From NCBI RefSeq assembly GCF_020905295.1, contig NZ_JAJJMM010000001.1, positions 1,116,001-1,180,000 of the forward strand: a stretch of DNA of 64,000 nt, read 5' to 3'. Below are positions 4,928 through 61,705 of this stretch, piece by piece. Below the pieces are notes generated by a model, which was not told the DNA's origin, made no database searches, and was given only the letters and a program-made list of their open reading frames with translations. A program made the position numbers and the translations under genes. The number at the start of each line of letters is the position of its first letter. The first letter of the stretch is position 1. The stretch is from Flavobacterium piscisymbiosum. GTDB taxonomy: Bacteria > Bacteroidota > Bacteroidia > Flavobacteriales > Flavobacteriaceae.

Positions 4928-4997
4928 AAGTACTTCTTTTTGCATAAAAACAGATGTTTAGAAACAAAAAAACATGTAGCGATACAAAAAGTACTTT
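4928..4997. promoter_or_regulatory. Candidate operator: two AAGTACTT palindromes between araC-type gene and hemA
   Basis: AAGTACTT (4928-4935) and AAAGTACTTT (4988-4997) are perfect palindromes with centres 61 bp apart, both in A/T-rich flanks (ACAAAAGTACTT, ACAAAAAGTACTTT). The spacing, near six helical turns, fits a looping or paired AraC-type operator. Binding is not demonstrated. Confidence 0.45.
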
Positions 4998-43040: not shown

Positions 43041-44015
43041 TTAATCGTGAACCGGACTTTGTGTACAAGGACAGTTACTGATTGATTGTAAGAAATCGAA
43101 ACCAATAGTTACCGAGTGTGTTCCTGTATTATAGTTTCCTAAATCGTTGAACATTACCTGATACGAATACCCGAAGTAAAATTTAGATTTCATGAAACCT
43201 ACCATTGGTCCAACTGATAATGGTTTTGGGAACTGATCGTTTAGGAAACGGTATGAAACTCCTACCCAATAGTAATCTTCGTAACGGTTGTAACGTCTGT
43301 ACTTGAAGTTAAAATCGGTTGTAGAACGTCCGTCACTGGCAAAGTATTGGTAGTAAATAGATGGTTCGTATTCGATACGTCTATTTTCTCCGTCTTTAAA
43401 TACAAAACCGGAATATACCTGATAGTTTGAAAGTAAATTAGGTTCTACTCCTCGGTATTTATCGGTATTTTTCTTTAAAACGTTATTGGCATTAAAACTT
43501 AAATAGAAACCTTTATTACGGTATAAGGCACTAATATCAAAATTGTTATTGGCATTATAACGATTGTCTGTTACCGATGCATCTATAACAGGATGCTCGA
43601 TTGTGGTATTGAATTCATCTGTATCGATACGAAATGTATTGAAGTTATATGAAAGTCCAAAAGACAGGTATTGCTGAGAATAATAATCTAAAATGATATG
43701 ATGCGCAAAGGAAACTTTTGCTCCTGTTTGACGCGTATAACCGTTTCTGTCATTATAAAGCGAAATACCAACTCCGGAACGATCGAGAACCCTAAAATCA
43801 GCGTAAAGTGACTGGTTTTGAGGTGCATCTTTAATCCCGACCCACTGTGTAAGACCGTTTGCCCTAATTCTAAGATTATCTCCAATACCGGCAAAGGCAG
43901 GTGAAATAACAAAAGGATTGTCGGCTAAATATTGTGTAAATACTGGTAGGTTTAACTCTTGGCTGTAACTTGTTGTTACAGCCATGAGTACTAAAGATAA
44001 AATAAACTTTTTCAT
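43041..44015 (-). CDS. sprF: Type IX secretion PorP/SprF family outer-membrane protein (SprF-like)
   Basis: A 324-residue outer-membrane protein with signal peptide FILSLVLMAVTTSYSQ and the PorP/SprF opening ELNLPVFTQYLADNPFVISP followed by AFAGIGDNLRI and YADFRVLDRSGVGISLYNDR. Alternating strands run to the end (e.g. YYWVGVSYRFLNDQFPKPLS). Family members assist secretion or surface attachment of a specific giant adhesin; SprF partners SprB in Flavobacterium johnsoniae. The gene starts 44 bp after the sprB-like stop on the same strand, matching that pairing. ATG 44015 is preferred to 44042 because it places the signal peptide at the N-terminus. Confidence 0.9.
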   Translation of the reverse strand: MKKFILSLVLMAVTTSYSQELNLPVFTQYLADNPFVISPAFAGIGDNLRIRANGLTQWVGIKDAPQNQSLYADFRVLDRSGVGISLYNDRNGYTRQTGAKVSFAHHIILDYYSQQYLSFGLSYNFNTFRIDTDEFNTTIEHPVIDASVTDNRYNANNNFDISALYRNKGFYLSFNANNVLKKNTDKYRGVEPNLLSNYQVYSGFVFKDGENRRIEYEPSIYYQYFASDGRSTTDFNFKYRRYNRYEDYYWVGVSYRFLNDQFPKPLSVGPMVGFMKSKFYFGYSYQVMFNDLGNYNTGTHSVTIGFDFLQSISNCPCTQSPVHD

Positions 44016-44059
44016 TGTAATTAATTTTTTAGACAACATCATTAGGGGCTCTTATTTTG

Positions 44060-47000
44060 TTATCTGTATAAAGTGAAATGTCCTACAAACTCTCTGTCAT
44101 CCTTCGCATCATTCAATTTAAGAACATACCAGTAATCTCCTGAAGGTAAATCGGCACCGTTGTATCTACCATCCCATTTTTGACCATAATGATACTTAGC
44201 AATTATACGACCGTATCTGTCGAAGATAGAGAACTCAAGGTTGTTGTAAATATTTGTACAACCAGGACCCCATGTTGTGTTTGTTGCACCACCAGGAGTA
44301 AAGTAATTATCAAGACAAATGTCTGTGTAAATTCCAGGAAGAGTTATTGTCGCCGTACATCCGTTTCTATCTCTTACAATTACAACATAATCTGCAGTTT
44401 TGTAGATTTTGTATTTGTTTGAAGATGTAAATGGCTCTCCGTTGAAGCTATACTCGTAACCAGGAGCTCCACCAGCAGCAGTAACTGAAAGAATATTCAT
44501 TTCTTCCTGACCTGGAGTTTTTATAAGTGTTAACGGATCGTATGCTTTGATATCGAAACTAGCCGTTGGCACTTTACATCCATTTGTATGTCTTGCCACA
44601 ATAAAGTGTTTTCCAGGAGCAACATTTGTAAAGATATTACCTGGTTGGAAAGGACCTACATCACTATCAAGCGCATAATCTACTTGTGTAAGATCTGTAT
44701 TACTGTCATCAACTGTAACCGTTACCATGTTTGTTTGTGAATTGTTTACACAATCGTAGTTTACCTCTACAGTTGGGTTAAGGGTTACTGGTTCCGGCAT
44801 ATCTACCGTAACTTCAGTAATACATCCGCTGTTATCTATAATGTAAACTATGTGTTTACCTCCTGATAATCCGCTGTAATCTTGTGTGTCGCCATCAACC
44901 GGAAGGAATGGACCTTTGTCATTATCAAGACTTGCTGTATAAGGCGCTGTTCCTCCGATAATCTGAATCGCAAATACACCATTTTTGTCTCCTACACAAA
45001 CCTCTGGAATCATAGAATTTGGAATCTCCACTGCCGAAAGCGGTGCCGGTTCTTTTACTTCTACGTCTTTAAGGAATACATAACATTCGTTTTCATCCTG
45101 AACTAATACATCGTAGAAACCTGGTTTAAGGTTTTCGAATACATTTTTATCAAAGAACTGTTTAAATTCTGGTTCGATTGCATATTTATATGCTCCTACA
45201 CCACCAGTCGCGTTTACAGTAATTTTACCATTGTTATAACCATTACAAGTTAAAGGTGTTGCAATAGCATCAGCTGTCAATGAAGTATCCGGTTCTGTTA
45301 ACTCGAACAAAGTAGATACTGTATCACAATCTAAGCTTGTAATTTTTACGATATAAGTTCCAATTGGTAATTCTGTAAATGTACCTGGAATAACCTGTGC
45401 CGGAGCTGGAGTAATATCAACACCTGCAGCATTTTGCAATGTATAAACATAGTTTCCTAAACCTCCATTTGCTAACACACTGATAGAACCCGTAGCACCA
45501 CCTTTACATTTAATATCAATTTTGCTAGAGCGCTCAAATCCTAATGCAGGAACTGGTGAGAACTCACTAGTGTTAGACACGTAGCTCTTACAATCATTAG
45601 CATCTTTTACAAAATACTTGTATTCAGTTTTTGCTGTTGTTACAGGTAATGTAATATCTACAAAAGAATTAAATGGTCCTGTGTAATTAATTCCGTCTGC
45701 ACTATAATAGTACGGAGCGTTTCCTCCAGTAGCTGTTAACCTCACAACCGGAACTTGTTTACAACTTTCAGTTTTTTGAATTTCTAAATTTGCTTTTACA
45801 ATTTCTGGCTGATCAATTGTCACTTTGTTAGAGTCATTTGTACAAGTCCAAGTGTCATTTACAGTAACATAATATGTTCCTGCTTTTAGACCTGTAAACT
45901 GATTTCCTCCTTGTGATTGCTCAACTGTAACAGTTCCATCAATTAATACACCGTGAAGTGTATAAGTATAGCTTCCTGAACCTCCGTTAATTGTATTAAT
46001 TGTTACTACTCCGTCTTCATTGTCGAAACAAGAAAGCATTGGTGTAGCACTAATTGTAACACTAATTGGCGTTGGGTTTTCTAATTTAGCGTCAACAAAA
46101 CTTTCACAACCGTAAGCATCTTTAACATATACTCTATAATCACCGGCTGTTAATTTGTCAAAAATTGGCGATTCGTTATATTCTTTAACGATAGTAGTAC
46201 CAGATCTTAATTCGTACAAGTACTCACCTGGCCATCCTCCAGTTGCTGAAGCAACGATTATACCATCATTATTATCTTTAATACAAGTAATTTCTGATTG
46301 GGTTTTCGTAACCGTTAATGCTGCCGTTGGCTGGTTGATTGTAAATGTTGTCTGAACCGTACATTCTGGTTTGTTTACCAATTTAGCTACAACTTTGTAC
46401 TGACCTGCCGCCATATTATCAACCCAAATTGGACCTGCACTTGTTGTTTTATCAGTGATTGGTAAAACTCCGCCTGTAATTGTATATTCAAACGGACCTG
46501 CGTCATTATCTGGAATTAACTGATTGTCTACGAAAGTTAATTGTACTCTTGTAGTTGTTCCAAAACAAACATTCTCATTTTCCGGTTTAGCGATGATGTC
46601 GAATGTGTTTGGATTATTGATAAAGTGAACTGCCTGAATCGTACAATTTGTAGCAGGATTCGTTACTGTCACGATATAATTACCAATTCCTAAATCTGTA
46701 AAGATTCCGTCTGTACTAGGAGTCGGACCATAAACAGTTCCGTTTGTACCGCTTAAACTATAGTTTAATCCGGTAATAACAGCTCCTGTTACTGATTTTA
46801 CTGTTACTGTGATATCTTCATTGTCTACGCAAGTAATCGCATTATTAACTTTTATAACCACATTATCCATTGCAGTAAATGGTACGATTTCATATGTTCC
46901 AACCGCAGTACCAATACATTCGTTTTCATCATAAACGTTTATTGTATAAGAACCACCTTTGTAGTCTTTTTCTATAAAGACATTTCTTGGTCCTTTATAA

Positions 47001-50000
47001 ACCTGTGTTACACCATTTATAAACTCATAAGTATACTCTCCTGTACCACCTGTAACACCATTAACCGTTATAGTTGCATAGTTACTAATGTTATCAGTAG
47101 TACAAGCATAAGGAGTTACAACTGGGTTTGGTACCTTAATTTCCAATGGTTGTTTCACTTCAACAGTTTTATCAGCAGGACAACCTCTTCCTGAAAGTAC
47201 AGAAACTGTATATGTTCCTGCTATTAATCCTTTAAATACCGGACTCTCTTGTGGTGTTCCACCATTTAGACTGTACATGTATTTAGGGTTATCATTTACT
47301 CCAGGACTTGTTGGTGCAAGACTTGCTGTAATTGTTCCGTCATTTCCACCATTACAAGAAACCATAGTAGGAATTGCATCAAATCCTGTAACTGGCGTTG
47401 CTGCATCTAAAGCAAATACAACTTCATCTGTACAATTACTTGGCGTTCCTAAATCAGTAACAATAATAGTATGTGAACCAGCAAATAACTTATCAAATAC
47501 TGCAGGTGTTCCTGTTATTGTTCTAACCCCATCAATAGTAAAACTAAAGTTCCCTGATCCTCCAGTTGCACTTGCAGTAACTTGTCCGTCACCATCAGCA
47601 CATGTTGTCAAATCATTTGGCTCTACTTTTAAAATTACTGGTTCTAAAATATCCACAACCGCTTTAAATTCAAACGGACAACCAAATTTATCTTTTACAA
47701 CTAAATCATAAACTCCAGTCGCTTTTACTTTAAATTTAGTCTCAGGTTGGAATCCGCTTCCTATACTGTATGTAAATGGTTCCATTCCTGTTCCAGGCGT
47801 AACTACAATTTCATAATATCCGTCAGCATCAGCACATTGTGATGTTACACTAGCAGTAAATCCTGCAGGCAACGGATCAATTTTGATGTCTACAATTATT
47901 GGAACAGAAATACATCCGTTTTGATCTTTTGCATAAACATACCATGATGGTGTTTTAGGATCTAACTCTCTCGTAGCTTCCGGTAAGAATACTCCTGGTG
48001 TCGCTGTTGGACTTACAGGAACAAATGAATAGGTATAATCACCTGCTCCACCGTGACCTGCAACTGTTACTACAGCACCAGTTGTACAATTAGCATTTAT
48101 ATTATCTTCTTCTGTAACTGTTACAGCGATAGGATCATTAACAGTAACGCTAAATTTAATATCACAGTTTGTAATATCATCAACAACACTAATTTCATAA
48201 GTACCTGTAGCTAAATTGGCTAAAGTAACTTCTGAATTAGAAGTTGCATGTGGACCATCAAATGCCACCGTATTTCTAGTTACTGAATACGTATAAGTTC
48301 CTTTGAAATCAGAAATTGTAAAGACTACTTTTCCATCATTAGTACCGATACAAGATTTCGCAAATGCTTCACCTGTAGCCTGAACTCTAACAACATCTTT
48401 TATAGTTAATACATCACTGAAAGTACATTTATTACTATCCGTAACTTCAAATTTATATTCACCAAAAGGTAATCCAGTAAATACTGCTGGAACTGCGTTT
48501 CCTGTTGTTGGGATCATCGCATAAGCTGTTGTTGGTGCTCCGTTGAATTCTGTAATTCTGAATTCTAATGCGCCTACACCATTTGTCGCTGTAACCGTAA
48601 CATCACTGCTGTTTCCAGAAGCACATGTAATAGCTGTTGGTGAGAATGTTAAAGCACTTGGCTTGTTTAACGGAACAATCGGAACTGTTACCGGACTTGT
48701 TTCACATCCATTAGCATCTCTAACTGTATACGTAACAGATGCAATTGAACCATCATTACTTACTGAAATACGATCTAATGAATCATACCCTTTACCATCA
48801 AAGTTATACTCATACGTTCCAGTTCCGGTACCACCTTTACCTTCTACCACTATTTCAGTCAATGTGCTACAAGATGTATTTGCTGTAATCGAATGATCTG
48901 CCTCTAATAAAGGTGGCTCTGTAATTGTAATTGTACTTGCTAATGAAGAACAACCTTTTCCATCTGTTACCACTACTGTGTAAGTATCCGCAGGTAAACC
49001 TGTATAAGCTCCGCTTGTATCACCAGTAGTATTAACAATACCTTTTACACTTGTAAGTACAAATTTATAAGGTGCAACTCCACCCGATGGCACAACAGTT
49101 AAACTACCGTTACTTTCAGTAAAACATCTTACATTAGTTTGTGAATCTGCAAGAGTTGGAATTTTTGGTTCGTTTACTGTTACAGGCGTTGTTGTAACTG
49201 TACATGGTAGATTACTATCTGAAATTTCAAAAGTGTAAACCCCGAAAGCAGTTACAGATTCGGTAAAATTACCCGTAGTTGGTTTTGGAAGCCCGACTGG
49301 GTTTCCATCTAAATACATTTGGTAAGTATAATCCGTTTTACCACCTTGAATTTCAACATCGATTCTTGCTGGTACATCACCAGTACAGAAAAGATCTTTA
49401 TCTACTGTTGCAGTAGCAATTAAACGCTCTTCAATTATGTATTCTATATCATCAGTACATCCGTTATCATCAGTTAAGACAATTTTGTATGTTCCTGCTT
49501 TTGTAAATGTTATGTTATTACCTGTTGGTAAACCATCTACAGTAAATGTTTTGTTACCATTGTACGTTGTAGATATTGCAGCATCTCCAAAATTAATTGT
49601 AATATCTGTATCAACAAAACATTGCTGTGCCGGTACCTTAAGTTCTGGAGCTACATTGTAAACAACCGTAATTGGTTTAAGTACAGATGTACATCCTTTA
49701 GAATCTCTTACAAAAACATCCCACGATAGATCTGTTAAGTTTGTATGAGCTGTAAAAGGTATACTAATATCTTTAAACTCTGTTGCAGCAGGAACACCAG
49801 CTCCAACTTTAACAACAGCATACGTATAATTTGCAGTTCCTCCTGTTATACCAGACACCGTAATTTGTGAATCTGGTTGTGAACAATATACTTTGGTAGC
49901 ATCTACTGTAAAGTCAATTGCAGCCGGCATCGTGATTATAACATTAGCCGATTTAGAACACTGTGTTTTAGTATCTGTTATTGTTACCGTATACTCTCCT

Positions 50001-53000
50001 TCTTCAAGTCCTGTTACTGTAATAACATCATTAGCTTGAGTTGGTGTGTTGTAAGCCAATCCGGTTGGATTACTTGTTACTGCAATCGAATAGTTTCCAG
50101 TTGAACTGAAATTAGAAACTGTAAATGTTGCCTCACCGTTATTATCAATTCCGTTTGCCGTGTTACAGCTTACATTCACTGATGATGTTTTAACAATATT
50201 AATTTTAGTTAAATTTTTAACAGTGTATGGTCTTTCTACAGAACATCCTCTAGCGTCTGTCACTCTAAACATGTAAGTACCTGCACTTAAGCCAGCAAAT
50301 ACTGGTGAAATTAAGTTATCATGATACGTTGGAGCAATCATTTCGTATTTATCAATTGCATAACCACCAACTGCCGTTAAAGTAACTTCTGTTAATTCAT
50401 CCGGACAAGTAGGTTCTACTGTTACATCAAAATCAATATTTGTTAATTGTATGAAAGGACTAACTGTTACACTTCCATTTGCTGTACAACCATTGGCATC
50501 AGTTACGAAATAATCTACTGTATGCGGGTTTTTATCATTTGGAATAATCACTTTAGCACCGTCAGAATTTAAGCCACCATCAAAACTATATTGATATTTA
50601 TATGAACCTGTTCCTCCAGTTGCTGCAAATGTTACTTCAGCTTCTTCCGGAGTATTTCCTGTAAGACATCCGAAATCTTTAAGAGTATGCTTAACTTCTA
50701 AATCATCTACTGGTTCCCCAACTTGATAATCTAAGGATAGCGAACATTTTCTCTTAGAAGTTACCGTAATTCTATAATCTTCTTTAGGAAGATTTGTAAA
50801 TACATTATCTGTTTGTACAATACCTGCCGGTAAAGCTGCACCTGATACTAATGAAATAGCATAAGTATAAGCCGGATCATTATTTCCTGCCAATAAATTT
50901 ACTGTAATCGTTCCGGTAGCTCCACCTTTACAAAGTACATTTGTAACTACAGCATCAAAAGTAACATCAGTTCCTTTTTCTAATTTAAATTCTGCACTAG
51001 TAGAACAACCTGTATTAACATTATCTGTCATCGTTAACGTATACGTAGTATTTTCGTTAAGACCGGTAACAGTGTTAGTACCTATTACAATACCTGCATG
51101 CGCTGGGCTTATATTATAGCTATAATCACCTGAACCACCTGTTGGAACAAATGATATTGCACCATTACTAATACCACAATCAGGTAGTAAAGATGGAGAT
51201 GGCACTAATTTAAGAGGCTCATCAATAGTAATACTTTGTTCATATTCACAATCATTTTTGTCTTTGATTGTAACTTTATGAGTTCCTGAATGTTGATCTG
51301 TTATCGTATATGGGAAAGTACCTGTATATTTTTCAAATAAACCGTTATCCAATTTTATATAATAATCTGCGATTCCTGCCTTGCTTAAAGTAACCTCAAT
51401 TCCATATTTATCCTGAGCCACACATTTATTAGCTACAGCTAAAGTAATTTCCGGACTTGGATCTTTAGTAATCACCTGACCTAAAGTAACAGGACAACCC
51501 TGACTATCTTTTACTACAATATTCCAGTTAGTTGTTGTTGCAGAATAAGGTAATTCCAGAACATTACTATCATCAAATGATGTTGGTGCTGTTGCTGGCG
51601 CCGTATAAGCTCCATAAGTATATGGTCCTGTTCCACCACCTGCAGTAACCGTTACAATCGCACCTTTATTGCAATTTGCATTTATTACATTCGTAACAGA
51701 TGCTTTAAGCTCAGATGCTGGTTGTCTGATTTGGAATGGTGTGGTAGTTGAACATTGAGTTCCACCAATTTCTTTAATATAAAGTATGTAATTACCTGGC
51801 AATAAACCTGTGATTGTTGCACTGTAAGGAGCTGCTGTAATGTTATCAGATTTTGGAGGTAAAATTGGCAAATTGGTCAAATTATCTCTTACTTCATAGT
51901 AAATTTCAGTACTACCTAAATCAGTTACTTCAAAACTTAACTCACCATTATTAGAATTATAACATGTTACATTCTTTGGCGTAGCTGTAACTGTAATATC
52001 TGATATTTTACTAGTTTTATATTCTAAATAAGATGGACATCCAACGTTATCAATAACAACAAATGTATACTTAGTATTTTGTTCTAACTTAGTAAAAGTA
52101 TAATCTCTATCTGCTATAGGACCAGATGTTGTACCAAGTCCATAGATAGAATATGTGAAAGGTGCGTTACCTGAAAGTGGTAACAGTTCTACTTTAACAG
52201 AAATACCTTCGATACAATCTTTACCAACCTCCTCAGCACTAAATTCTAAATAAGGAGGTGGTGTAATTCTTATTGGATCACTTTCAAATTTACAACCTTT
52301 TGCATCTACTATATTGATGAAATAATCACCAAAACCTAAATTAGGAAAATTGTGATTTACGCTTGCAGCTGCAGTTGTATTTGCAGTGTAGGTATCTATT
52401 TCTTTCATCGTATTATCATATAAATAATACGTAAATGGCGCAGTACCTCCAGAAGTAGTTTTAAGTTTAATATCTATGCTTCCTGGTTGTGTGCTATTAC
52501 ATGTAATTCCGTTTGCCTTAATATCTACATCAATTGCCGCAGGAGGTAAGACATTCGCTGTACCACTAACTTCACAATTTTTACTGTCTCTAACAACATA
52601 AGCATAACTTCCTGCTGCTAAACCACCGTAAACAAATTGATCAATGAAACCTCCACCATTAAAACTATATTTAAATGGCCCAACTCCCGTTAATGCTTCC
52701 AGTTTTACTGATCCGTCTTTGTCTCCATTACAAGTCGGACTTACTTCTGTTACTTTAGCAGTTACCGGATCTGCATCTTTTACTTCAACTGCAACCGTTT
52801 CTTTCTTACATCCGTTTGCATCAGTAATTTCAAATTGATAAATACCAGCTGTTGAAACCGGATAATCAAAAAATGTTCCCGTAAAAGTATTTCCTGCAGT
52901 TGAATAATTACCGCCATCAATTTTTACTTCATAAGTAAAGTCTTGTTTTCCTCCACTTACAACTTTAACTCTTATATTACCATCAATTGGAGTAACTAAT

Positions 53001-56000
53001 GTACATGTAAGCCCTGTAGTCAACTCTGCGCTTACAGTCATTGCATCATAAACAGTAACACTTGTAGTTCCCGTACAACCGTTAGCATCTTTTACAGTAA
53101 TGGTATAAGTTCCTGCTCCTACCGTAAATGTATTTGACGGATTTGGTGCAACACCTGTATTAATTGTAAAAGTATATGGCGCAACACCACCATGACCTTC
53201 AGCTTCAATTATAAATGCATTTCCAGAAGCAGTACATTGATTGGTAACATCAGCACTAACCGTTGGTGCTAAATCTTTAGCAATAGGTACATCTATTTTA
53301 ACAGTACACTTATTACTGTCTTTTACCCAAACATCCCAATTTGCATTTGTTGTTGGATTTAGATCAGCACTTGCAGCATCTTTATACTCAGAATCTGCCG
53401 GAGTAACATTATTTTGAACGAAAGCATATTTATAGTCAGGCGTTCCTCCTGTAGCATGAACTGTTACTTTAGAGGTTGCTTTTCCGCAATTTGCATTTAC
53501 ATTAGAATCTAAAAATAAAGCTAAAGCATCTGTAGGCTGAGTAATTGTAATTTTTGTTAAAACTGTACAATTTGTAGTTTCATCTGTAAATAATACATCA
53601 TATTGACCTTCTTCAAGATTAGATAATGTAAAAGTATTTAATGTTTGATTTGTTATAGGAGCATCAGTGTTTATTTGGTAGCTGTATGAACCTGTAAATT
53701 TCCCAACATTATATCTGATATTTCCTGTCTTTTCTTTTGGAGTTGCAAAACAGTAAACATCGTTAAGTTTCGTTGCTATTGCAGTCATTGAAACTAATGG
53801 TGGAATATTGATACTGAATTCATCATAACAACCGTTAGCAGCTGTTGCTCTAAAAGTATAGTTACCTGAATCAAGTCCATCGAAAACTCCGGTTGTAGCA
53901 CCAGTTACATTGGTTTGTCCTGAAACAATTGTATAAGAAGTCACTGCACCACTACCACCAACTAAAGTAATTGTAGCTGTACTTTTCTGGCTTGTACCAG
54001 GATTACAATAGATAGGAGTTGCAACAACTTTATCAATTTTAGGCGGATTAAGCGGCTGTATTGTAAGTGTTTGCTCACCTGTTTCACAACCATTACCATC
54101 CATTACAGAATATTTAACTGTTTGTACTTTAGTATTATCAGCTACTTCTAAAGTGTTAGTAGTAAGGCTATAAGAACCTCCATTAAAACTGTAAGAATAA
54201 GGTAATGTTCCTCCAGATGCTGTTATAACAACATTTTTAGATTCTTTAGTATTTGTTGTATTACAAGTAAATGCATCAATTTGTGCATCAGCTTTAAGTT
54301 CTGTTGGTTGCGTAATAACCACCTGCGTAGTACCCTCACAACCTATAGCATCTTTTACTACGATACCATAAGTTCCTTCGATTAATCCTGAAGGATTATT
54401 TATTGTATAATTTGTAGCCGGAGTTCCAACTCTTGTTATAGAATAAGTATAAGGTGCTTTTCCGGAAGTTGGTGTAACCAAAATACTTCCTGTAGCGCCA
54501 TTATAACATTTAACATCTTTATGACTTGTATTAAGTGTTAAAACAGTGGCTTTAACTGTTACCGGAATATCTGCTGTATATGCGTAACAAACCGGGTTTG
54601 CACTGTCATTAACTCTAAATCTGTAAGTTCCCGCTGCAGTAGCAGTATAAGGACTTGTAGTTGTAGCATAAGTCGTTCCACCGTCTGTTGAAACTGCAAA
54701 AGTATGTGTACCTGTACCACCTCCAGAAGTTAACTTTATAGTTGTTTCTGATGTACAAGCCGCATCAACCACTACCTCTGGTGTAATTGTTAATTTTGAT
54801 GCCACTACATAATCGATAAATGCAGTACAACCAAATTTATCTTTTACTGTTAATTTATAATTTCCAGGAGTTAAGCTAAATGTAGCTGAATCTCCAAAAT
54901 CGTTACCATCTTTACTAAACGTTGCCGGTGTTGCAAAAGTTCCTGTTATTGTTACAGAAATAGGACTTCCCGGATAGCATTGCGCTGCAATAGGATCGAT
55001 CTTCGGAAGATCTTCTGTTAGTATTGTAACCGTTTTCTTAACCGGACAATTATTAATGTCTTTTACATAAACATCAATACTAGTGGTTAAAACAGCAGTA
55101 TCAACTGTTAAAATTGTTCCATATGGCGTAGTTGGCGTAGTTGAACCACTTGGTGCATAAGCATAAGTATAGTTACCGCTACCTCCCGATATACCTGTTA
55201 TTGTAAGCGTTGCAATTTTATTATTACAACTAATTTTTGATGCATTAACAGTAAAATTAATTGCAGTTGCAGTACCCACAGTTACCTCTTTGCTATCTGA
55301 ACTACAACCTGTTGTAAGATCTTTTGCAACAAAAGTATAGGTTCCCGGAGCTAAATTAGTATAGGTTACTACATTTCCGCTAATGTTTGGAGTACCTGTA
55401 TTTGGCGAAAAAGTATAGCTAAAGTTACCTGTACTACTTACATCAGAAACTGTAAATGAAGCTTTTCCGTTTTTAGCATCAAAACATAATTCATCTTCTT
55501 TTGAACCTTCGGCTTTAATTTTAATTGCTGGGTCGATAGTTTTCTTACCATTTACAGTACATCCTCTCGCATCTGTTGCTTTAAAGAAATACTCACCTGC
55601 CACTAATCCTGTAAAAACACCTGTAGTGTTTGAAGGTGGTGAAGTTGGCCCTCCTGTTACTTCATAAGTAATTGGAGCAATTCCTCCAGTTGTTGTAAGA
55701 GTTAGACTTGTTGTCGCGTCATTACAAGTAATTGCTGGCGGTACAGAAATATTAATTAAAGTTGGCGGATTAAACGCCGGAACTTTAACTTCACCTTCAG
55801 CTGTACATCCATTAGCATCTTTTACATAGAATTTAACTGTTTGTTCAGTTGTTGTATTTGTAACTGTTTTGGTAACTACATCATTATAACTTGTACCACC
55901 ATCAAAATTGTATTTGTAACCACCTGCTCCACCTTCACCAACAATACTGATTACGGTGCTTGTGCTACAAGTTGTATTAGCCGGGAAACTTCCTGTAACC

Positions 56001-59000
56001 GCAACTTTTGTAGGGTTAGTTAAAGTAACTTCATAAACTATCGATTCACATCCCTTACTATCTTTTACCTGATACGTATATGTTCTGGTATTTACTGCAC
56101 CTACAAACGCATTTAAGTTTGAATACGTAGCAGATGTACCATAAGTACCACCATTAAATTTAAATTCATAAGTTGGTCCTGATCCTCCTGCCGGTAAAAC
56201 TGTAAATGAACCATTTGAGTCATTATTACATTTTGGATCTGTTTGACTCGCTATTGAAGCTGTTGGAGTAAGTTTTGTATCTACTTTTGCGGCTGCAGTA
56301 ACTACAAAACATCCTTTTGAATCTGTTACTTTAAATACATAACTACCTACTTTAGATGTTTTGTAGATATTACTAGTCATGTCAGCAAAATTAGTTCCAC
56401 CGTCTTCTGATACTTGATACGTATATGGAGCTATTCCTTCTGAAGCAGTAATCGTAATCTCAGCTTCGGGAGTTGATGTACAGTCTATTAATTTAGTTAT
56501 ACTAGGACTTGCAATAATTTGTTTTCCAATTTCAATTCCGGTAATTGCATCTGCAATACATCCGTTACCATCCGTTACTACAACTGAGTATGTTCCTGGT
56601 CCAACTACAAATTTATTATTATCTTTTTGCGCCGTTGCTCCATTTAAACTGTAATAGAAAGGTGCTATTCCTCCTTCTACTTTAACTACAATAGTTGCTT
56701 TATTAGCACTATCATAACATAAATCAGAAGTTGAATCTAAAGTTATTTTTGGTTTAACAGGATCTTTTACTTCAACAGGATCTGAAGCTGAAGAAGCACA
56801 AGAGCTTTTATCCTTAACTACTACAAAATAGGATCCTTCCGGCACATTATCAAACGTAGCTAAATCACTCGTTCTGTAAATCGTACCATTTGAGTGGTAA
56901 AGTTCATAAGTATATTTTGGTGTTCCTCCTCCAGGAATAGCAGTAATTGAAGCTCCCAGAATACATGTTGAAGGTTTTGTTATACTTGCTGTTGTGGTAA
57001 GCGTTATTGGTGCTTTTATTTCTTTTTCGAAAGAACTACTACATAATCCAGCATCATCATTCTTAACGATAATTTTATAATTACCCTTAGCTAATCCAGT
57101 AATGGTAAATGGTGACGTTGTCGCAGTACTCCAATTTGCTCCATTATCAAGAGAATATTTGAAGCCATTTGTTGCATCAAAATTTTCAACCGTAAGTGTG
57201 ATCTTACCATCGTTTTTATCGCTACATGTTGCATCGTCTATAATAGGTTCTTCAACTTTAAATGCTTTATTAGTTTCAATAATAACATCAAATTTTTTCT
57301 CTGTAATACATGATTTAGGTAATTGATATACCAAAATATCATCAAGACATAAATCATTTCCATCTTCTCTGTCACTATTAGATCTGATTACAAAATCTAA
57401 AGAGCTGTAAGGTCCCGGATTGATAGACAATTTATCAATTAAGTTCCAGTTCTCATTCTGAAGGATATCTGCAGTATTTACAGATGCACCCGGTACCAAA
57501 ACACCATCTTTATGCAATTCAACCGTTAAGTTTGGCTTGATCTTTTGATTGTCTTTAAGTAATAAGTTTAAAGCATAAAATTCAACTTTAATATCCTGAT
57601 TTGGAATAATATCTACAATTGGCTTAGAGTAAATAATACCCCCTACACCCACTGTTCCTCCAATATTTACTGCTAAATATCTTCCTTGTTTGTCAACTCC
57701 ATTGCTGGTATGATCTACAGGAATTACCCATCCAAAATCGTTTTTATGATCAGGAAGAATTCCTTTTGTTACTACATATTCTCCATCATTTAAAAGATAA
57801 TCATGCCATAAACCATGACCACACTCTGTAATGTAATCCTGTCTCTCCCAGCAATATTTGCTACTGATACCAGGTGTTTTTTCATCTTCTCCACTACCAA
57901 AATCTTCTCTCAGCAAATTACTGTAAGTTGCTGCCGAAACCAATTTATATTTTACTGATATTTCGTGTTTTCCAGTTGGAACATTGTTAAATACGTTACT
58001 GGTAATTGGTGTATTTGGTTTTGTATCAATATAATACTCATAAGTATAATTTCCTCCACCTGAATTGTTTACTACAATAGTTGCATTTCCGGTTCCGTTG
58101 CAATTGTACACTACTTTCGGATTTGGTTCAATACTAGGATCATCCGGTTTACGCTCTAAAACAATATCTTTCATTGCGTAAACACAACCTTTACTGTCTT
58201 TTACATAAATAGTATATTTTCCTGGATCTACATAAGCTTCGTTCTCATTTATCCATGTTTTTTGATCATCAAAACTATAAGTATAAAGAGGCGTTCCTCC
58301 TTGTACATTCGTAATTCTGATTTTTCCCTGAGATTCAAATCCTGCAGGACCACAACCTGACAGTTCAGAAACTCCTGCAGAAGCACTTAATGCGTTTTCA
58401 GGACCTGTAATTTTTACTGTTCTTGGTTCATCTAAACATTCAGCACCTTCATATACATATTTTACAACAAGTGAATAACTTCCCGGTTTAAGATTAGTAA
58501 TTGGCGAAATAGAACTGAATGCTCCGTTATTAAGACTGTATGACACAGCATAACCAGAGTCTGCAGGTGTAACATCAATTTTAATCTGACCTCCATTTGT
58601 CCCGTAACAATCAACATTATTAGGCGTAACAGTAATAGTTGGTTTTGCTAAATAATTAATTTTCACAGGAGGTATTGTTACTTTACATCCTTTATCATCA
58701 ACAACTACAATGTGATACATCCCATCTGCAGGTAACGTAGCAAGTGTTACCGGAATTTTTGGGTCTGTTACATAATCAGCATTTCCATTTATGTAATACA
58801 TATAGTATGGTGGTGGTCCCGGTCTTGGAGTTCCTCCTTTTACTGTTACCTGAATTTCTCCCGCACCACATTCTGACAGTACTTTAGTAACTTTAGCTTC
58901 AGCTGTAAGGCGATAATCAAGAACTTCTATTTCTTTAATTACACTACAGCCATTATTAGCAGTAGACATAATTACTTCATACATAAAACCAGGTTCAACA

Positions 59001-61705
59001 CCTTTAAATGTTACAAAGTTATCTGTTATAAATCCTGTATTTTGAATTTCAGCTGTAGTTCCCTTTTTTCTAAGAATAAATTTATAATTACCAGGAACAT
59101 TACTAATACTAGCAGTTATAGTTCCTAAATCTCCTGTACAAATTGGGTTAGTTGCTTTAAGATCTGTTTTAAATTCAAGTTCTTCAACATTTACATCCAC
59201 AAAGAAAGGACATGCTGAGATTTGACCGTCTATTAATACAGTCTGTCTAATTTGGACTTTGTAGTTTCCTTTTGGAACATTATTGAAAGTACTTTCAGGC
59301 TGATAAGTAATACCATCAAGACTATAACTATAACCTGTATTTTCAGGTGGGTTTGTAACTTTAATCCATCCTTTAGTGTTACAAATGATATCTTGCTTTT
59401 CAGCTTTAGAATCAAGATTATTTTGATAAACATTAAAATAATGTGTTACCACACAAGTGTTACCATAGTTTACAACAACTCTGAAAACACCTGGTCTGTC
59501 AGCTGTAAATTTAGTATTGTTGTCAACAATTGTTGTCCAGTTTGTTGCTCCTTCATAAGGACAGCTATCTGGATTAGGCTCGTCTTTTGAAGGCACGTCT
59601 TTTGTTTCCTGCCACGTTACCTTTGTCGCTCCGGTAATGTGTGTATCAATTTCTCTCTTATCATTAAGACCACATAAGAATATTTTAGGAAATGGTTTTT
59701 TATCCCTAACACATGCAAAAGCTTCTCCTGTAGCAGGATCAATATTATCTCCTTTGATTGGATTTTTTATTGTTGCCGCAAGATAATCTGTTACATTAAA
59801 TGTCTGCTGAATTGGTTCACAATTCACTGCACCACTATTGTTAACAGTATATTTTCCAGGTTTGTTAATTGTAACGATTCTGTTGTTACCCCCAAAAATA
59901 ACTCCGTTTGGATCTCTCCACACATAAGTTGTATAACCCAAAGCAGCTGTTAAAGTTGTGGTACCACAAAGCGATACATCTCTACTGAATAAACATTTAT
60001 CGATGCCTACTAAAAAGTTTGTTGCTGTTGGTTCTCCTACATTACATTCTGAAATTGTAGAATAACTTCCTTCTCCAAATCCGTCTGCAGAGGTGTTTTT
60101 TACACCATAATATTTAGAATAAGCCGTGTTTTCGATTCTGTTCGCACAAGCATCAATCAGCTCATTACAATCATCTACCACTTTTACTTTAAATTTTATA
60201 GTATAGGGATCGATAGCTCCACCTGTCACAACCAATGCATCAGGTATTGTAAAAATCAGTCTTCGTGCTACATCGTCATAAGTTGCAGTAATTCTGGAGT
60301 CCATTGTAATACTGCTAAGTCCACCAAAAATTACATTTTTAGGAAGGTCGTCTGTAATGGTAAAGTTTTTAGCACTGTCATTTCCTTCGTTCTTAAATTT
60401 AATTTCGTACTGAAGCTCCTGACTTAGTGTTACTGGCTGCCCATTAATATTCTTGCCGTCTTTGTCCAGTACATTTTTTCTAAGTACTATTTTTGGGGCA
60501 ATAACTTCTATGGATAATGCATTAAAAAACATATAATACGAATCTGAAGAAGTACTAATTCTAAGAGTAGCTGCTGTTTCGCCTTGTTTTATTATCTGAT
60601 TACCTGGATTGTCAACTTTTACAACACCTGTATCATAGCCTAATGTATTTATACTATTTGGTTTACGGCCTCCAAGAATTACATCACCATTAGTTATAGT
60701 ACTATTAAAAAAATTGGGTACAGGAGGTGTAGCCGGAACAGCAGGTCTGGCAGGTACAGCTGTCCAAAAAGCCCATGACGGATTAGCAGGAATAGCGGGA
60801 ACAGCAGGTATCTCTGGTGTTCCTGGAGCAATTGGTCTTACTAATGAGGAAATATTACCAAAATTTAACGAGGAGTTTCCTTTAATTTGGAGGCCATCTC
60901 CTACTAAACTAGCATCACCCTCTAATGCAGCAAATGCTAATTTTACATTTACATCTCCAAAAGTATTCGTTGTAAAACCAGAAATAGGAATGTCTAAAGC
61001 CGGATCACTACTTCTAATGATACTAAAACCATCAAAACTTGTAATAAGCTTATTAGGAAGCAGGGGATCTTTATACACTACAAAAATAGACCATCCTGCA
61101 GAATTTCCTCCTGGAGTAATTTTACCTTGTGAACACACTAAATCAGCAATTGTATAAATACCTTCTTTAGCTGCTTTAACCTCGGTAGTAATTTCTTTAA
61201 AACAGGCATAAGGTTTAGATGCATAAACATTACTTACACCCGGGCCTCCTTCATCATAAATAATACTTCCGGTAATAGGAACGTAAGCACCATTAGGCAC
61301 TTTTAGTTTTACTTGATTTATTTTACTTCTATCATCACCTTGATATGTTCCCGCCCAATATAAAGCGGCATATACAATTTCATAACACGTTTTACTAGCC
61401 GGAGGAATTGTTAATGTAGCCGAACTTGAATTAAAAGTTGATTCGGTATCAATATCGATATATTTCATCTCGAAATTATCATTCACCTTACTTTTGTCGT
61501 CAAAAGCGTCAATCGCCCGTTGTCCATCCTTATTTTCATCTCTATTTAGCATATTGTTTCCAATAACTAAAATATCTCCATTCAAGTTGCCTCTATACTG
61601 AGTTGCAAATTCCTTTCTTAACTGGGCGTGAGAAGAGATACTAAGCAATACGAATACGGCTGCAATAAATACTTTAAAAATAGTAGGTTTTTTCATAGTC
61701 TTCAT
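44060..61705 (-). CDS. sprB: Giant SprB-like gliding adhesin with type B T9SS sorting domain (5881 aa)
   Basis: A single uninterrupted 17.6-kb frame. Order: signal peptide (ends SSHAQ, about residue 28); a non-repetitive N-terminal domain with a Pro/Ala-rich insert near 285-330; a DUF11-like domain near 398-541 (VTLSQELQYEIKFKNEGND); then dozens of SprB-type Ig-like modules of about 80-90 residues, each with paired Cys (C..G..G.I near the start, D..GC near the end); one jelly-roll-like insertion near 1268-1465; and a C-terminal sorting domain of about 85 residues (CLDNYFTPGGATNTTWGPGC, IFDRYGRIIAKY, GDYWYVLKL). Modules between 47.1 and 56.0 kb form a seven-module superrepeat present five times. 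The protein is exported by the type IX system and, by analogy with F. johnsoniae SprB, moves on the cell surface during gliding. ATG 61705 or 61696 may be the start. Confidence 0.92.
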   Translation of the reverse strand: MKTMKKPTIFKVFIAAVFVLLSISSHAQLRKEFATQYRGNLNGDILVIGNNMLNRDENKDGQRAIDAFDDKSKVNDNFEMKYIDIDTESTFNSSSATLTIPPASKTCYEIVYAALYWAGTYQGDDRSKINQVKLKVPNGAYVPITGSIIYDEGGPGVSNVYASKPYACFKEITTEVKAAKEGIYTIADLVCSQGKITPGGNSAGWSIFVVYKDPLLPNKLITSFDGFSIIRSSDPALDIPISGFTTNTFGDVNVKLAFAALEGDASLVGDGLQIKGNSSLNFGNISSLVRPIAPGTPEIPAVPAIPANPSWAFWTAVPARPAVPATPPVPNFFNSTITNGDVILGGRKPNSINTLGYDTGVVKVDNPGNQIIKQGETAATLRISTSSDSYYMFFNALSIEVIAPKIVLRKNVLDKDGKNINGQPVTLSQELQYEIKFKNEGNDSAKNFTITDDLPKNVIFGGLSSITMDSRITATYDDVARRLIFTIPDALVVTGGAIDPYTIKFKVKVVDDCNELIDACANRIENTAYSKYYGVKNTSADGFGEGSYSTISECNVGEPTATNFLVGIDKCLFSRDVSLCGTTTLTAALGYTTYVWRDPNGVIFGGNNRIVTINKPGKYTVNNSGAVNCEPIQQTFNVTDYLAATIKNPIKGDNIDPATGEAFACVRDKKPFPKIFLCGLNDKREIDTHITGATKVTWQETKDVPSKDEPNPDSCPYEGATNWTTIVDNNTKFTADRPGVFRVVVNYGNTCVVTHYFNVYQNNLDSKAEKQDIICNTKGWIKVTNPPENTGYSYSLDGITYQPESTFNNVPKGNYKVQIRQTVLIDGQISACPFFVDVNVEELEFKTDLKATNPICTGDLGTITASISNVPGNYKFILRKKGTTAEIQNTGFITDNFVTFKGVEPGFMYEVIMSTANNGCSVIKEIEVLDYRLTAEAKVTKVLSECGAGEIQVTVKGGTPRPGPPPYYMYYINGNADYVTDPKIPVTLATLPADGMYHIVVVDDKGCKVTIPPVKINYLAKPTITVTPNNVDCYGTNGGQIKIDVTPADSGYAVSYSLNNGAFSSISPITNLKPGSYSLVVKYVYEGAECLDEPRTVKITGPENALSASAGVSELSGCGPAGFESQGKIRITNVQGGTPLYTYSFDDQKTWINENEAYVDPGKYTIYVKDSKGCVYAMKDIVLERKPDDPSIEPNPKVVYNCNGTGNATIVVNNSGGGNYTYEYYIDTKPNTPITSNVFNNVPTGKHEISVKYKLVSAATYSNLLREDFGSGEDEKTPGISSKYCWERQDYITECGHGLWHDYLLNDGEYVVTKGILPDHKNDFGWVIPVDHTSNGVDKQGRYLAVNIGGTVGVGGIIYSKPIVDIIPNQDIKVEFYALNLLLKDNQKIKPNLTVELHKDGVLVPGASVNTADILQNENWNLIDKLSINPGPYSSLDFVIRSNSDREDGNDLCLDDILVYQLPKSCITEKKFDVIIETNKAFKVEEPIIDDATCSDKNDGKITLTVENFDATNGFKYSLDNGANWSTATTSPFTITGLAKGNYKIIVKNDDAGLCSSSFEKEIKAPITLTTTASITKPSTCILGASITAIPGGGTPKYTYELYHSNGTIYRTSDLATFDNVPEGSYFVVVKDKSSCASSASDPVEVKDPVKPKITLDSTSDLCYDSANKATIVVKVEGGIAPFYYSLNGATAQKDNNKFVVGPGTYSVVVTDGNGCIADAITGIEIGKQIIASPSITKLIDCTSTPEAEITITASEGIAPYTYQVSEDGGTNFADMTSNIYKTSKVGSYVFKVTDSKGCFVVTAAAKVDTKLTPTASIASQTDPKCNNDSNGSFTVLPAGGSGPTYEFKFNGGTYGTSATYSNLNAFVGAVNTRTYTYQVKDSKGCESIVYEVTLTNPTKVAVTGSFPANTTCSTSTVISIVGEGGAGGYKYNFDGGTSYNDVVTKTVTNTTTEQTVKFYVKDANGCTAEGEVKVPAFNPPTLINISVPPAITCNDATTSLTLTTTGGIAPITYEVTGGPTSPPSNTTGVFTGLVAGEYFFKATDARGCTVNGKKTIDPAIKIKAEGSKEDELCFDAKNGKASFTVSDVSSTGNFSYTFSPNTGTPNISGNVVTYTNLAPGTYTFVAKDLTTGCSSDSKEVTVGTATAINFTVNASKISCNNKIATLTITGISGGSGNYTYAYAPSGSTTPTTPYGTILTVDTAVLTTSIDVYVKDINNCPVKKTVTILTEDLPKIDPIAAQCYPGSPISVTITGTFATPATFSKDGNDFGDSATFSLTPGNYKLTVKDKFGCTAFIDYVVASKLTITPEVVVDAACTSETTIKLTSGGGTGTHTFAVSTDGGTTYATTTSPYTATAAGTYRFRVNDSANPVCYAYTADIPVTVKATVLTLNTSHKDVKCYNGATGSILVTPTSGKAPYTYSITRVGTPATNYTINNPSGLIEGTYGIVVKDAIGCEGTTQVVITQPTELKADAQIDAFTCNTTNTKESKNVVITASGGTLPYSYSFNGGSYSLTTNTLEVADNTKVQTVKYSVMDGNGCETGEQTLTIQPLNPPKIDKVVATPIYCNPGTSQKSTATITLVGGSGAVTSYTIVSGQTNVTGATTGVFDGLDSGNYTFRATAANGCYDEFSINIPPLVSMTAIATKLNDVYCFATPKEKTGNIRYNVGKFTGSYSYQINTDAPITNQTLNTFTLSNLEEGQYDVLFTDETTNCTVLTKITITQPTDALALFLDSNVNANCGKATSKVTVHATGGTPDYKYAFVQNNVTPADSEYKDAASADLNPTTNANWDVWVKDSNKCTVKIDVPIAKDLAPTVSADVTNQCTASGNAFIIEAEGHGGVAPYTFTINTGVAPNPSNTFTVGAGTYTITVKDANGCTGTTSVTVYDAMTVSAELTTGLTCTLVTPIDGNIRVKVVSGGKQDFTYEVKIDGGNYSTAGNTFTGTFFDYPVSTAGIYQFEITDANGCKKETVAVEVKDADPVTAKVTEVSPTCNGDKDGSVKLEALTGVGPFKYSFNGGGFIDQFVYGGLAAGSYAYVVRDSKNCEVSGTANVLPPAAIDVDIKANGITCNSTQPGSIDIKLKTTSGGTAPFTYYLYDNTMKEIDTYTANTTAAASVNHNFPNLGFGDYFINIVDAKGCKFESDPIRITPPPYLEFSAEEVGKDCIEGISVKVELLPLSGNAPFTYSIYGLGTTSGPIADRDYTFTKLEQNTKYTFVVIDNVGCPSYLEYKTSKISDITVTATPKNVTCYNSNNGELSFEVTDLGSTEIYYEVRDNLTNLPILPPKSDNITAAPYSATITGLLPGNYILYIKEIGGTQCSTTTPFQIRQPASELKASVTNVINANCNKGAIVTVTAGGGTGPYTYGAYTAPATAPTSFDDSNVLELPYSATTTNWNIVVKDSQGCPVTLGQVITKDPSPEITLAVANKCVAQDKYGIEVTLSKAGIADYYIKLDNGLFEKYTGTFPYTITDQHSGTHKVTIKDKNDCEYEQSITIDEPLKLVPSPSLLPDCGISNGAISFVPTGGSGDYSYNISPAHAGIVIGTNTVTGLNENTTYTLTMTDNVNTGCSTSAEFKLEKGTDVTFDAVVTNVLCKGGATGTITVNLLAGNNDPAYTYAISLVSGAALPAGIVQTDNVFTNLPKEDYRITVTSKRKCSLSLDYQVGEPVDDLEVKHTLKDFGCLTGNTPEEAEVTFAATGGTGSYKYQYSFDGGLNSDGAKVIIPNDKNPHTVDYFVTDANGCTANGSVTVSPFIQLTNIDFDVTVEPTCPDELTEVTLTAVGGYAIDKYEMIAPTYHDNLISPVFAGLSAGTYMFRVTDARGCSVERPYTVKNLTKINIVKTSSVNVSCNTANGIDNNGEATFTVSNFSSTGNYSIAVTSNPTGLAYNTPTQANDVITVTGLEEGEYTVTITDTKTQCSKSANVIITMPAAIDFTVDATKVYCSQPDSQITVSGITGGTANYTYAVVKVGAGVPAATEFKDISIPFTAHTNLTDLSWDVFVRDSKGCTSVLKPITVVYNVAPELKVPAQQCFVDTDITINFGDAAISTTYNGNKTFTVDGLPTGNNITFTKAGTYKIVLTDDNGCTDDIEYIIEERLIATATVDKDLFCTGDVPARIDVEIQGGKTDYTYQMYLDGNPVGLPKPTTGNFTESVTAFGVYTFEISDSNLPCTVTTTPVTVNEPKIPTLADSQTNVRCFTESNGSLTVVPSGGVAPYKFVLTSVKGIVNTTGDTSGAYTGLPADTYTVVVTDGKGCSSLASTITITEPPLLEADHSITANTSCSTLTEIVVEGKGGTGTGTYEYNFDGKGYDSLDRISVSNDGSIASVTYTVRDANGCETSPVTVPIVPLNKPSALTFSPTAITCASGNSSDVTVTATNGVGALEFRITEFNGAPTTAYAMIPTTGNAVPAVFTGLPFGEYKFEVTDSNKCTFSDVLTIKDVVRVQATGEAFAKSCIGTNDGKVVFTISDFKGTYTYSVTRNTVAFDGPHATSNSEVTLANLATGTYEISVVDDITNCDIKFSVTVNDPIAVTVTEEDNINANCTTGAVVTVAGHGGAGDYTYSFVPVSPTATPGVFLPEATRELDPKTPSWYVYAKDQNGCISVPIIVDIKIDPLPAGFTASVTSQCADADGYYEIVVTPGTGMEPFTYSIGSGFQPETKFKVKATGVYDLVVKDKFGCPFEFKAVVDILEPVILKVEPNDLTTCADGDGQVTASATGGSGNFSFTIDGVRTITGTPAVFDKLFAGSHTIIVTDLGTPSNCTDEVVFALDAATPVTGFDAIPTMVSCNGGNDGTITASLAPTSPGVNDNPKYMYSLNGGTPQESPVFKGLIAGTYTVSVLSGRGCPADKTVEVKQPLEIKVPNPVVTPYACTTDNISNYATITVNGVTGGTGEYTYEFINGVTQVYKGPRNVFIEKDYKGGSYTINVYDENECIGTAVGTYEIVPFTAMDNVVIKVNNAITCVDNEDITVTVKSVTGAVITGLNYSLSGTNGTVYGPTPSTDGIFTDLGIGNYIVTVTNPATNCTIQAVHFINNPNTFDIIAKPENENVCFGTTTRVQLTFVDNQLIPDNDAGPFEYTITGGVLPITDKTTSAGPIWVDNMAAGQYKVVAKLVNKPECTVQTTFTINQPTAALTVTKTQSEITCIKDNNDGIIVASATGGWPGEYLYELRSGTTIVKEYNESPIFDKLTAGDYRVYVKDAYGCESFVDAKLENPTPISVTISATPMLSCFDNEDGVVTINTINGGSGSYTYTLHGVLIDGTVTVEQSQGGNQFTGLKAGTYYVTVNDTWTCTNDSNKVTIDQPEIVKANLEIQKTESCKQVPVVRLTATGGNAPYYYSADGINYTGPFNSFVDITLPVTTAKTEYKYFVKDANDCKSYVSNTSEFSPVPALGFERSSKIDIKCKGGATGSISVLANGGLGNYVYTLQNAAGVDITPAPAQVIPGTFTELPIGTYIVKITSLDCDTVSTLFELTEPDTSLTADAIATPLTCNGYNNGKITVNATGGVGAYKYAIEPEFKQFFDKNVFENLKPGFYDVLVQDENECYVFLKDVEVKEPAPLSAVEIPNSMIPEVCVGDKNGVFAIQIIGGTAPYTASLDNDKGPFLPVDGDTQDYSGLSGGKHIVYIIDNSGCITEVTVDMPEPVTLNPTVEVNYDCVNNSQTNMVTVTVDDSNTDLTQVDYALDSDVGPFQPGNIFTNVAPGKHFIVARHTNGCKVPTASFDIKAYDPLTLIKTPGQEEMNILSVTAAGGAPGYEYSFNGEPFTSSNKYKIYKTADYVVIVRDRNGCTATITLPGIYTDICLDNYFTPGGATNTTWGPGCTNIYNNLEFSIFDRYGRIIAKYHYGQKWDGRYNGADLPSGDYWYVLKLNDAKDDREFVGHFTLYR
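47105..55965 (-). repeat. Five-fold superrepeat (~1.77 kb, ~590 residues each) inside the sprB-like gene
   Basis: Seven distinguishable Ig-like module types recur in fixed order. The A-type Cys falls near 55965, 54260, 52503, 50665, 48873 and 47103, i.e. steps of 1705, 1757, 1838, 1792 and 1770 bp. D-type modules (NINANC / VINANC / NVNANC starts, ending DVWVKDSNKC-like) fall near 55240, 53500, 51680, 49890 and 48090, with the same spacing. C modules (STGNFSYTF, TGSYSYQIN, STGNYSIAV, KGTYTYSVT) always come just before D and an E module (QC or KC start) just after. A sixth copy is partial. Positions were read by eye, accurate to some tens of bases. Confidence 0.8.

Follow-up and report, generated by a model that had tools for sequence, protein, structure and literature searches.

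The window analysed here is a stretch of 64,000 nucleotides from Flavobacterium piscisymbiosum (NCBI RefSeq assembly GCF_020905295.1, contig NZ_JAJJMM010000001.1, positions 1,116,001 to 1,180,000; host genome of 6.49 Mb in 2 contigs), and a single open frame on its reverse strand (44060–61705) encodes a repeat protein of 5,881 amino acids. Pfam SprB repeats (PF13573) were detected above the cut-off in both halves of this protein (E values of 1.1e-26 and 5.3e-77), and its C terminus carries a type B sorting domain of the type IX secretion system (T9SS; PF13585, CHU_C) with 36.9 bits vs a cut-off of 27 and an E value of 4e-9. A gene of the sprF family (PorP/SprF) lies directly downstream on the same strand at 43041–44042 (PF11751, E 3.2e-69; TIGR03519, E 3.5e-70). 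Judged by its repeats, its CHU_C domain, and this adjacent gene, the 5,881-amino-acid protein is identified from sequence as the SprB gliding adhesin. The names given to relatives by their sources are "T9SS type B sorting domain-containing protein" or, for one of them, "putative adhesin SprB". This report concerns the order of the SprB modules, in which a seven-module superrepeat is laid out along two arms of matched length on either side of a conserved centre. The parts of the locus are as follows.

44060–61705, reverse strand: sprB, predicted giant gliding adhesin of 5,881 amino acids (open frame, Pfam)
60206–61705, reverse strand: N-terminal non-repeat region, amino acids 1–500, used as query for orthologs and for the tree
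52001–59713, reverse strand: N arm, modules at amino acids 665–3235 up to the axis, tip module 0 included (module segmentation, tip profile)
57257–57862, reverse strand: insertion domain of ~200 amino acids (1282–1483) inside the N arm (profile)
54302–56005, reverse strand: block 1, modules A–G, N arm
52538–54301, reverse strand: block 2, N arm
50705–52537, reverse strand: block 3, aberrant; contains the mirror axis, and tip modules occupy the positions of typical A and B modules
52001–52252, reverse strand: tip module 0, amino acids 3152–3235, central, recognisable in the size classes inspected
51710–52000, reverse strand: tip module +1, amino acids 3236–3332; the axis lies between +1 and 0, at nucleotide 52000
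48908–50704, reverse strand: block 4, C arm
47141–48907, reverse strand: block 5, C arm
44537–52000, reverse strand: C arm, 29 modules, amino acids 3236–5723
44099–44314, reverse strand: CHU_C type B sorting domain (PF13585, E 4e-9)
43041–44042, reverse strand: sprF-like gene, putative outer-membrane carrier or anchor (PF11751, TIGR03519)

Modules were delimited by their pair of cysteines, which lie ~50–70 residues apart and are followed by 23–29 residues to the next module in the regular part of the array; positions given here for single modules are those of the first cysteine. The initial annotation had placed a superrepeat of seven module types (A to G) in five copies between 47105 and 55965, and this was confirmed. 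The span runs from the first cysteine at amino acid 1913 (nucleotide 55969) to that at amino acid 4868 (nucleotide 47104) and holds exactly 35 modules. In the self-comparison that the annotation had proposed, with a period near 590 residues in mind, the strongest offsets within the span were 1776, 2383, 1199, and 579 amino acids, one to four times a unit of ~595, and the single-module offset gave no signal at the same threshold. The mean score of module pairs in the same phase was 78.9 (n = 70) vs 43.0 for other pairs (n = 525), a value that none of 20,000 shuffles of module order reached (maximum 58.8, z = 13), and only 7 and its multiple 14 stood out when periods of 2–15 modules were scanned. 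Profiles trained on four blocks and applied to the one left out gave the right phase for 29 of the 35 modules; the position-specific typing rests on these profiles and the pairwise scores, instead of a tree of all modules. D modules had been noted near 55240, 53500, 51680, 49890, and 48090, and their first cysteines lie within 12 bases of these positions, at 55228, 53488, 51673, 49885, and 48088. One correction concerns block 3, which straddles the centre of the array and is aberrant for that reason: three of the six misses fall in it, and its A and B modules (amino acids 3069 and 3164) find their best matches among other module types. The further statement that the order is lost outside the span held only in part. 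Upstream, the predicted types C, E, and G were obtained for the modules at 1494, 1663, and 1826, respectively, and that at 1742 is nearly F; downstream those at 4959 and 5047 are weakly typed as B and C. Calls of type G are weak throughout because the G profile attracts many modules.

Relatives of SprB were collected with the N-terminal non-repeat region as query. Matches at E ≤ 1e-30 were obtained in 157 of 398 genomes of the genus, and 94 genes with open frames of more than 3,300 amino acids were taken from the matches listed, which together with the gene of the window make 95 long orthologs; G216 (internal stop) and G045 were omitted from this set. A wider scan took in the best 80 of 406 loci, 33 of them complete and mostly from other genera (Winogradskyella, Algibacter, Psychroserpens, and others), and protein sets contributed 120 each among the matches listed, of 601, 574, and 199. 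Out of 379 proteins, the 366 that end like a sorting domain were kept, and dropping 6 with an ambiguous tip left 360. Among these 360 are near-duplicates shared by the genome, locus, and protein sets; 150 non-redundant proteins serve for questions of independence, and the tree is a FastTree of their N-terminal regions. The profile of the ~200-amino-acid insertion domain is present in 256 of the 366 relatives, and the domain has therefore been lost or gained between lineages. Two proteins of Flavobacterium psychrophilum, P0245 and P0250 (3,349 vs 3,529 amino acids), differ by the length of two modules at module index 8.

The lengths of the 95 long orthologs cluster with a period of ~1,180 amino acids. 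In the 74 of them in which the insertion gap was recognised, the number of modules after the insertion is 22 (6 genes), 36 (9), 37 (8), 50 (32, window included), 51 (1), 64 (7), 65 (1), or 78 (6), and the remaining four have 20, 21, 27, and 34 modules, the last three reaching contig ends. Counts of 29, 43, 57, and 71 do not occur among these 74 genes. Similarity has a period of 7 modules, yet the ladder climbs in steps of 14. The extra modules of several longer proteins consist of two separate seven-module tandem duplications ~27 modules apart, and a plain duplication unit of 14 modules was rejected on this ground. Modules within one duplication site are ~80–100% identical, and the best identity across sites or arms is 35–61% (five proteins), which argues that the copies at each site arose within that arm. 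Conversion of one arm by the other was likewise rejected, the two sites matching each other at only 35–61%.

When 39 orthologs were aligned module by module to the best 50-module relative with an extra charge on a second gap, two equal gaps (7+7 or 14+14) were placed in all 38 that differ by at least 7 modules (G038 has a third gap, of 2, at the end). In 37 of the 38 the centre separates the two gaps, and in G395 one gap overlaps it. Single-module extras fall at or near the centre in eight of ten cases and at the insertion in the other two (G239, G181). Among the 33 complete loci of the wider scan, 27 have 24 modules, five have 30, and one has 23, and all five with 30 modules (L163, L167, L183, L188, L138) differ from 24 by 3+3, on both sides. 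Outside the main Flavobacterium group, then, the step is three modules per arm, vs seven within it. The usual change in length is 14 modules (7+7) because blocks come in pairs, one per side, at mirrored distance from the centre. Recent tandem copies were surveyed in 15 distinct equal-armed proteins with 35 or 42 modules before module 0 (36 or 43 after it) and were present in both arms in 12 and in neither in 3, a survey that is unable to show one-arm cases because only equal-armed proteins of the two largest classes were taken. Their inner and outer limits match between the arms within two modules, e.g., 7.5–21.5 and 6.5–21.5 modules from the axis, apart from mismatches in G210 (inner, 7.5 vs 11.5) and G320 (outer, 26.5 vs 20.5). 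Both sites of G170 have moved outwards together, to 13.5–26.5 and 12.5–24.5.

These comparisons bear on what the initial annotation had made of the superrepeat. Its proposal of growth by duplication of the seven-module block is supported by the several relatives with tandem blocks ~80–100% identical at a distance of 7, and its overall interpretation stands to that extent; the picture of a linear array is incomplete, since in the relatives examined the blocks are added in pairs and not singly. Block number in SprB of other Flavobacterium varies by 7+7, and the superrepeat differs among lineages (3+3 steps, and steps at the base of the C arm that are described below). The data are compatible with the idea that the filament has a physical repeat along its length.

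In eight proteins compared side by side, the middle modules can be recognised from one size class to the next, and a short central motif was found in 13 of 32 chosen orthologs, each time exactly at the middle index. A tip profile was built from the three central modules of 60 orthologs at the expected centre, and it could be placed in all 366 full-length proteins, in 6 of them ambiguously. The commonest counts before and after module 0 are (11,12), (14,15), (21,22), (28,29), (35,36), and (42,43). Because these counts run n, n+1, the axis lies between modules 0 and +1 and the arms are equal at 12, 15, 22, 29, 36, or 43 modules; in the window protein the axis falls at nucleotide 52000, with 29 modules after it. 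Counting the tip modules in and snapping module counts to the nearest class, within a module or two, 327 of 360 full-length SprB proteins are classed as equal-armed. Before snapping, the difference of C and N counts among the 327 matches expectation in 288 and misses it by one in 37 and by two in 2, and the lengths of the two arms in residues correlate at 0.9987 with a slope of 0.98. Equal-arm classing sets the modules before the insertion to eight in insertion-bearing proteins, whereas the modules actually counted there (n = 251) are 8 in 171, 7 in 51 (the window protein among them), 6 in 25, and 9–15 in 4. Without this setting, the C arm exceeds the stretch from insertion to tip by 9 modules in 205 of 251 proteins and by 10 in 30 of 251. 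As an observation on the centre itself, the central modules (51710–52252, reverse strand, in the window) vary strongly between lineages; when 26 sequences were compared with the first among them across some five central modules, identity was 26–74%, and in sequence the type of tip appears as if exchanged between lineages.

Shared ancestry was addressed with phylogenetically independent pairs that differ in the N arm (INDEPENDENCE). The C arm differed in the same direction in 13.4 of 15, 21.1 of 22, and 10.7 of 12 pairs at three cut-offs (means over random pairings) and never in the opposite direction (sign test, p = 2e-4, 1e-6, and 1e-3). Two further cut-offs left only 2 and 4 pairs, all concordant.

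Covariation between the arms was sought by aligning orthologs by distance from the tip and recording the share of column pairs whose corrected mutual information is strong. In three of the four size classes, this share peaks where the two module offsets sum to ~0–1, i.e., along the mirror anti-diagonal. For the class with 50 modules (84 sequences), pairs at least 12 modules apart gave 65–74 at the mirror and two sums below it vs 5–9 nine steps away; at least 30 modules apart, the values were 50–56 vs 2.5–7 on the far C side, with 30–39 at some low sums represented by 2–4 pairs. For the class with 36 modules (71 sequences), the values were 42–58 at or next to the mirror vs ~0–2 beyond it (at least 4 steps above, at least 6 below), and for 8 of 10 N modules the best-scoring partner in the C arm lies no more than one module from the mirror position. 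The (14,15) class (42 sequences) gave 84–139 vs 0.6–6, with the partner within one module of the mirror in 5 of 11 N modules. AlphaFold2 predictions gave a predicted template modelling score of 0.62 for nine modules centred on the tip and 0.43 for nine modules of one arm, the latter with a poorer alignment and a predicted local distance difference test score of 82.1 vs 86.3. Immunoglobulin (Ig)-like modules are 4–4.5 nm long each, and the 65 modules counted in orthologs of 6.4 kaa (thousand amino acids) would thus measure 260–290 nm extended and 130–150 nm folded in two. An SprB of ~6,500 amino acids is described as a filament of ~150 nm (PMC13104615).

From these patterns we consider it likely that SprB is an antiparallel hairpin with its arms paired in register and its tip in the middle of the sequence, a reading in which the turn and the contact between arms are deduced from sequence comparisons. 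The ~58 two-cysteine Ig-like modules of the window protein, ~29 per arm, would run outward from the cell surface, and the chain would turn back at the two conserved middle modules (0 and +1, axis at nucleotide 52000) so that its two arms run next to each other in opposite directions and in register. The seven types would then face each other across the arms as A with D, B with C, E with G, and F with F. Such a closed pairing scheme would explain why the block is a unit and why change is paired, for with arms in register the gain or loss of a block keeps the pairing only if the mirror block changes too. The mid-sequence tip would touch the substrate, both ends of the chain would lie near the membrane with the C-terminal domain held by SprF, and the base of the C arm could tolerate extra modules without partners, which would form a single-stranded stalk. 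The more specific proposal, a two-stranded rod made from one chain, with the seven-module register A-D, B-C, E-G, F-F and evolution through compensatory block changes, seems to us somewhat more probable than its negation.

How the exceptions are distributed matters to this reading. The 33 proteins of 360 not classed as equal-armed comprise 26 with a surplus at the C-terminal base, six with a longer N arm, and P0229, whose raw counts are 29 modules on each side of module 0 and whose insertion led to its misclassing. In 25 proteins with an N arm of 14 and a longer C arm, the surplus ends 0–2 modules from the C end of the array (25 of 25) and begins 13.5–15.5 modules from the axis, where the N arm ends, in 23 of 25. 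In G267 and G404 there is also a 9+7 pair, interpreted as 7+7 with two further entries within the insertion; the surplus at the base of these two starts 20.5 modules from the axis, close to where their longer arms end. All base surpluses are multiples of three modules apart from that of G033 (25); P0216 has three more modules near the C end.

A number of observations weigh against the hairpin. In six proteins (P0082 and P0085, from one contig, P0104, P0113, P0125, and P0128) the N arm alone is longer by 7 modules, and these six carry tandem copies only in the N arm. Near-identical counterparts that hold the missing C-arm block exist for four of them (P0082, P0085, P0125, and P0104) and were lacking for P0113 and P0128 among the proteins compared. 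Thus P0083 and P0085 share 65 of 65 modules at 97–100% identity and P0083 has one more C-arm block, and the same relation holds for P0124 and P0125 (61 of 65 shared modules at least 97% identical) and for P0103 and P0104 (57 of 65). The tandem copies concerned are 100% identical in P0083, 97–100% identical over six of seven modules in P0124, and 81–97% identical in P0103. Assembly collapse is plausible for the P0083 and P0124 pairs, since near-identical copies can be collapsed by short reads, and is less so for that of P0103; real strain variation in these pairs is possible. The N arm of L171 is one module shorter. SprB of F. johnsoniae, which has 6,497 amino acids (PMC9870892), was not found among the relatives collected here and fits the class with a longer N arm better by length than it fits the ladder. 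Seeding of the tip profile is partly circular for its 60 orthologs; the other genera lie outside the seed. The covariation of the (14,15) class amounts to one co-varying segment, vanishing for modules at least 18 apart, and pair-by-pair contact was rejected for it. The 24-module class (23 sequences) has no clear covariation peak. Finally, covariation may record paired replacement of mirror segments in place of contact; the mirror is special either way.

The main rival to a hairpin is a dimer in which two SprB chains lie antiparallel, the N arm of one on the C arm of its partner. It predicts the results on arm symmetry equally well. In a dimer, one of the two C-terminal anchors would sit at the distal end, remote from SprF and the membrane; a hairpin anchored at the surface is the simpler account of the unpaired extensions at the C-terminal base; and the filament length of ~150 nm (PMC13104615) is about half the extended length. 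We regard the dimer as unlikely on these grounds. It is less likely still that the arms do not touch and both instead match a third body, be it a partner adhesin or a length-setting mechanism that needs a central tip, an arrangement that would also explain the fixed central position of the tip and that by itself predicts neither duplications at mirrored distances nor covariation on the mirror diagonal.

Near-identical repeated blocks are substrates for recombination, and a process at the level of DNA (gene conversion or coupled unequal crossing-over) might produce paired duplications without structural need. The sites were copied from their own arms, however (35–61% identity across vs ~80–100% within, five proteins), and no single recombination event is known to us that duplicates two sites ~27 modules apart while leaving the middle unchanged. 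The step size also differs by lineage (7+7, 3+3), and unpaired changes at the base occur, so single changes can be made. We give such a process very little weight. Ordinary tandem duplication of blocks in a linear fibre, with symmetry arising by chance or shared ancestry, can claim the reality of period 7 and of the tandem copies, as well as the six proteins with an N-arm-only block, yet it is hardly credible next to concordance in 21.1 of 22 independent pairs on average with none opposite, and two equal gaps in 38 of 38 alignments.

If the hairpin is correct, the filament would lengthen or shorten by whole block pairs, each worth ~30 nm (seven modules of 4–4.5 nm), and the force of gliding would be carried by a double strand instead of a single one. 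A tip in mid-sequence with both ends at the membrane would change the geometry expected of SprB, and the adhesive surface would have to be sought at modules 0 and +1, nucleotides 51710–52252. If blocks of seven domains do change in compensation for one another, they would also show with unusual clarity how a long-range structural constraint acts on a repeat protein.

Other genes in the genome and the window can be noted apart from SprB. Outside the window, the same genome encodes at C1:5444443-5449194 an open reading frame of 3,517 amino acids with SprB repeats whose profile scores alternate in 246-bp steps, and part of its array has a two-module super-period. Within the window, 19544–21604 and 21810–23870 on the reverse strand encode adjoining proteins of 686 amino acids that are 75% identical without gaps and both contain an HEISH motif; we take them to resemble M13-type metallopeptidases.

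In the open-access literature searched, no seven-module superrepeat, equal arms, hairpin, or fold-back was found described for SprB, and the founding SprB papers could describe one. SprB of F. johnsoniae is like the window protein in its SprB repeats (PF13573), its CHU_C type B sorting domain, the adjacent sprF-type gene, and its giant size. The MpAFP/RTX adhesins extend linearly, with binding domains near one end. SprB differs from them in that its conserved centre lies in mid-sequence and its repeats change in mirrored pairs. The likeness between the two is that Ig-like modules are strung together at great length and keep a binding part at a distance from the cell, ~120 tandem Ig-like domains in the case of MpAFP (PMC4083281). 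In logic only, the closest parallel is the covariation of RNA stems, where an alteration on one side of the stem is answered at the mirrored position on the opposite side; in SprB, unlike RNA, the matched changes occur at the scale of protein domains and seven-domain blocks.

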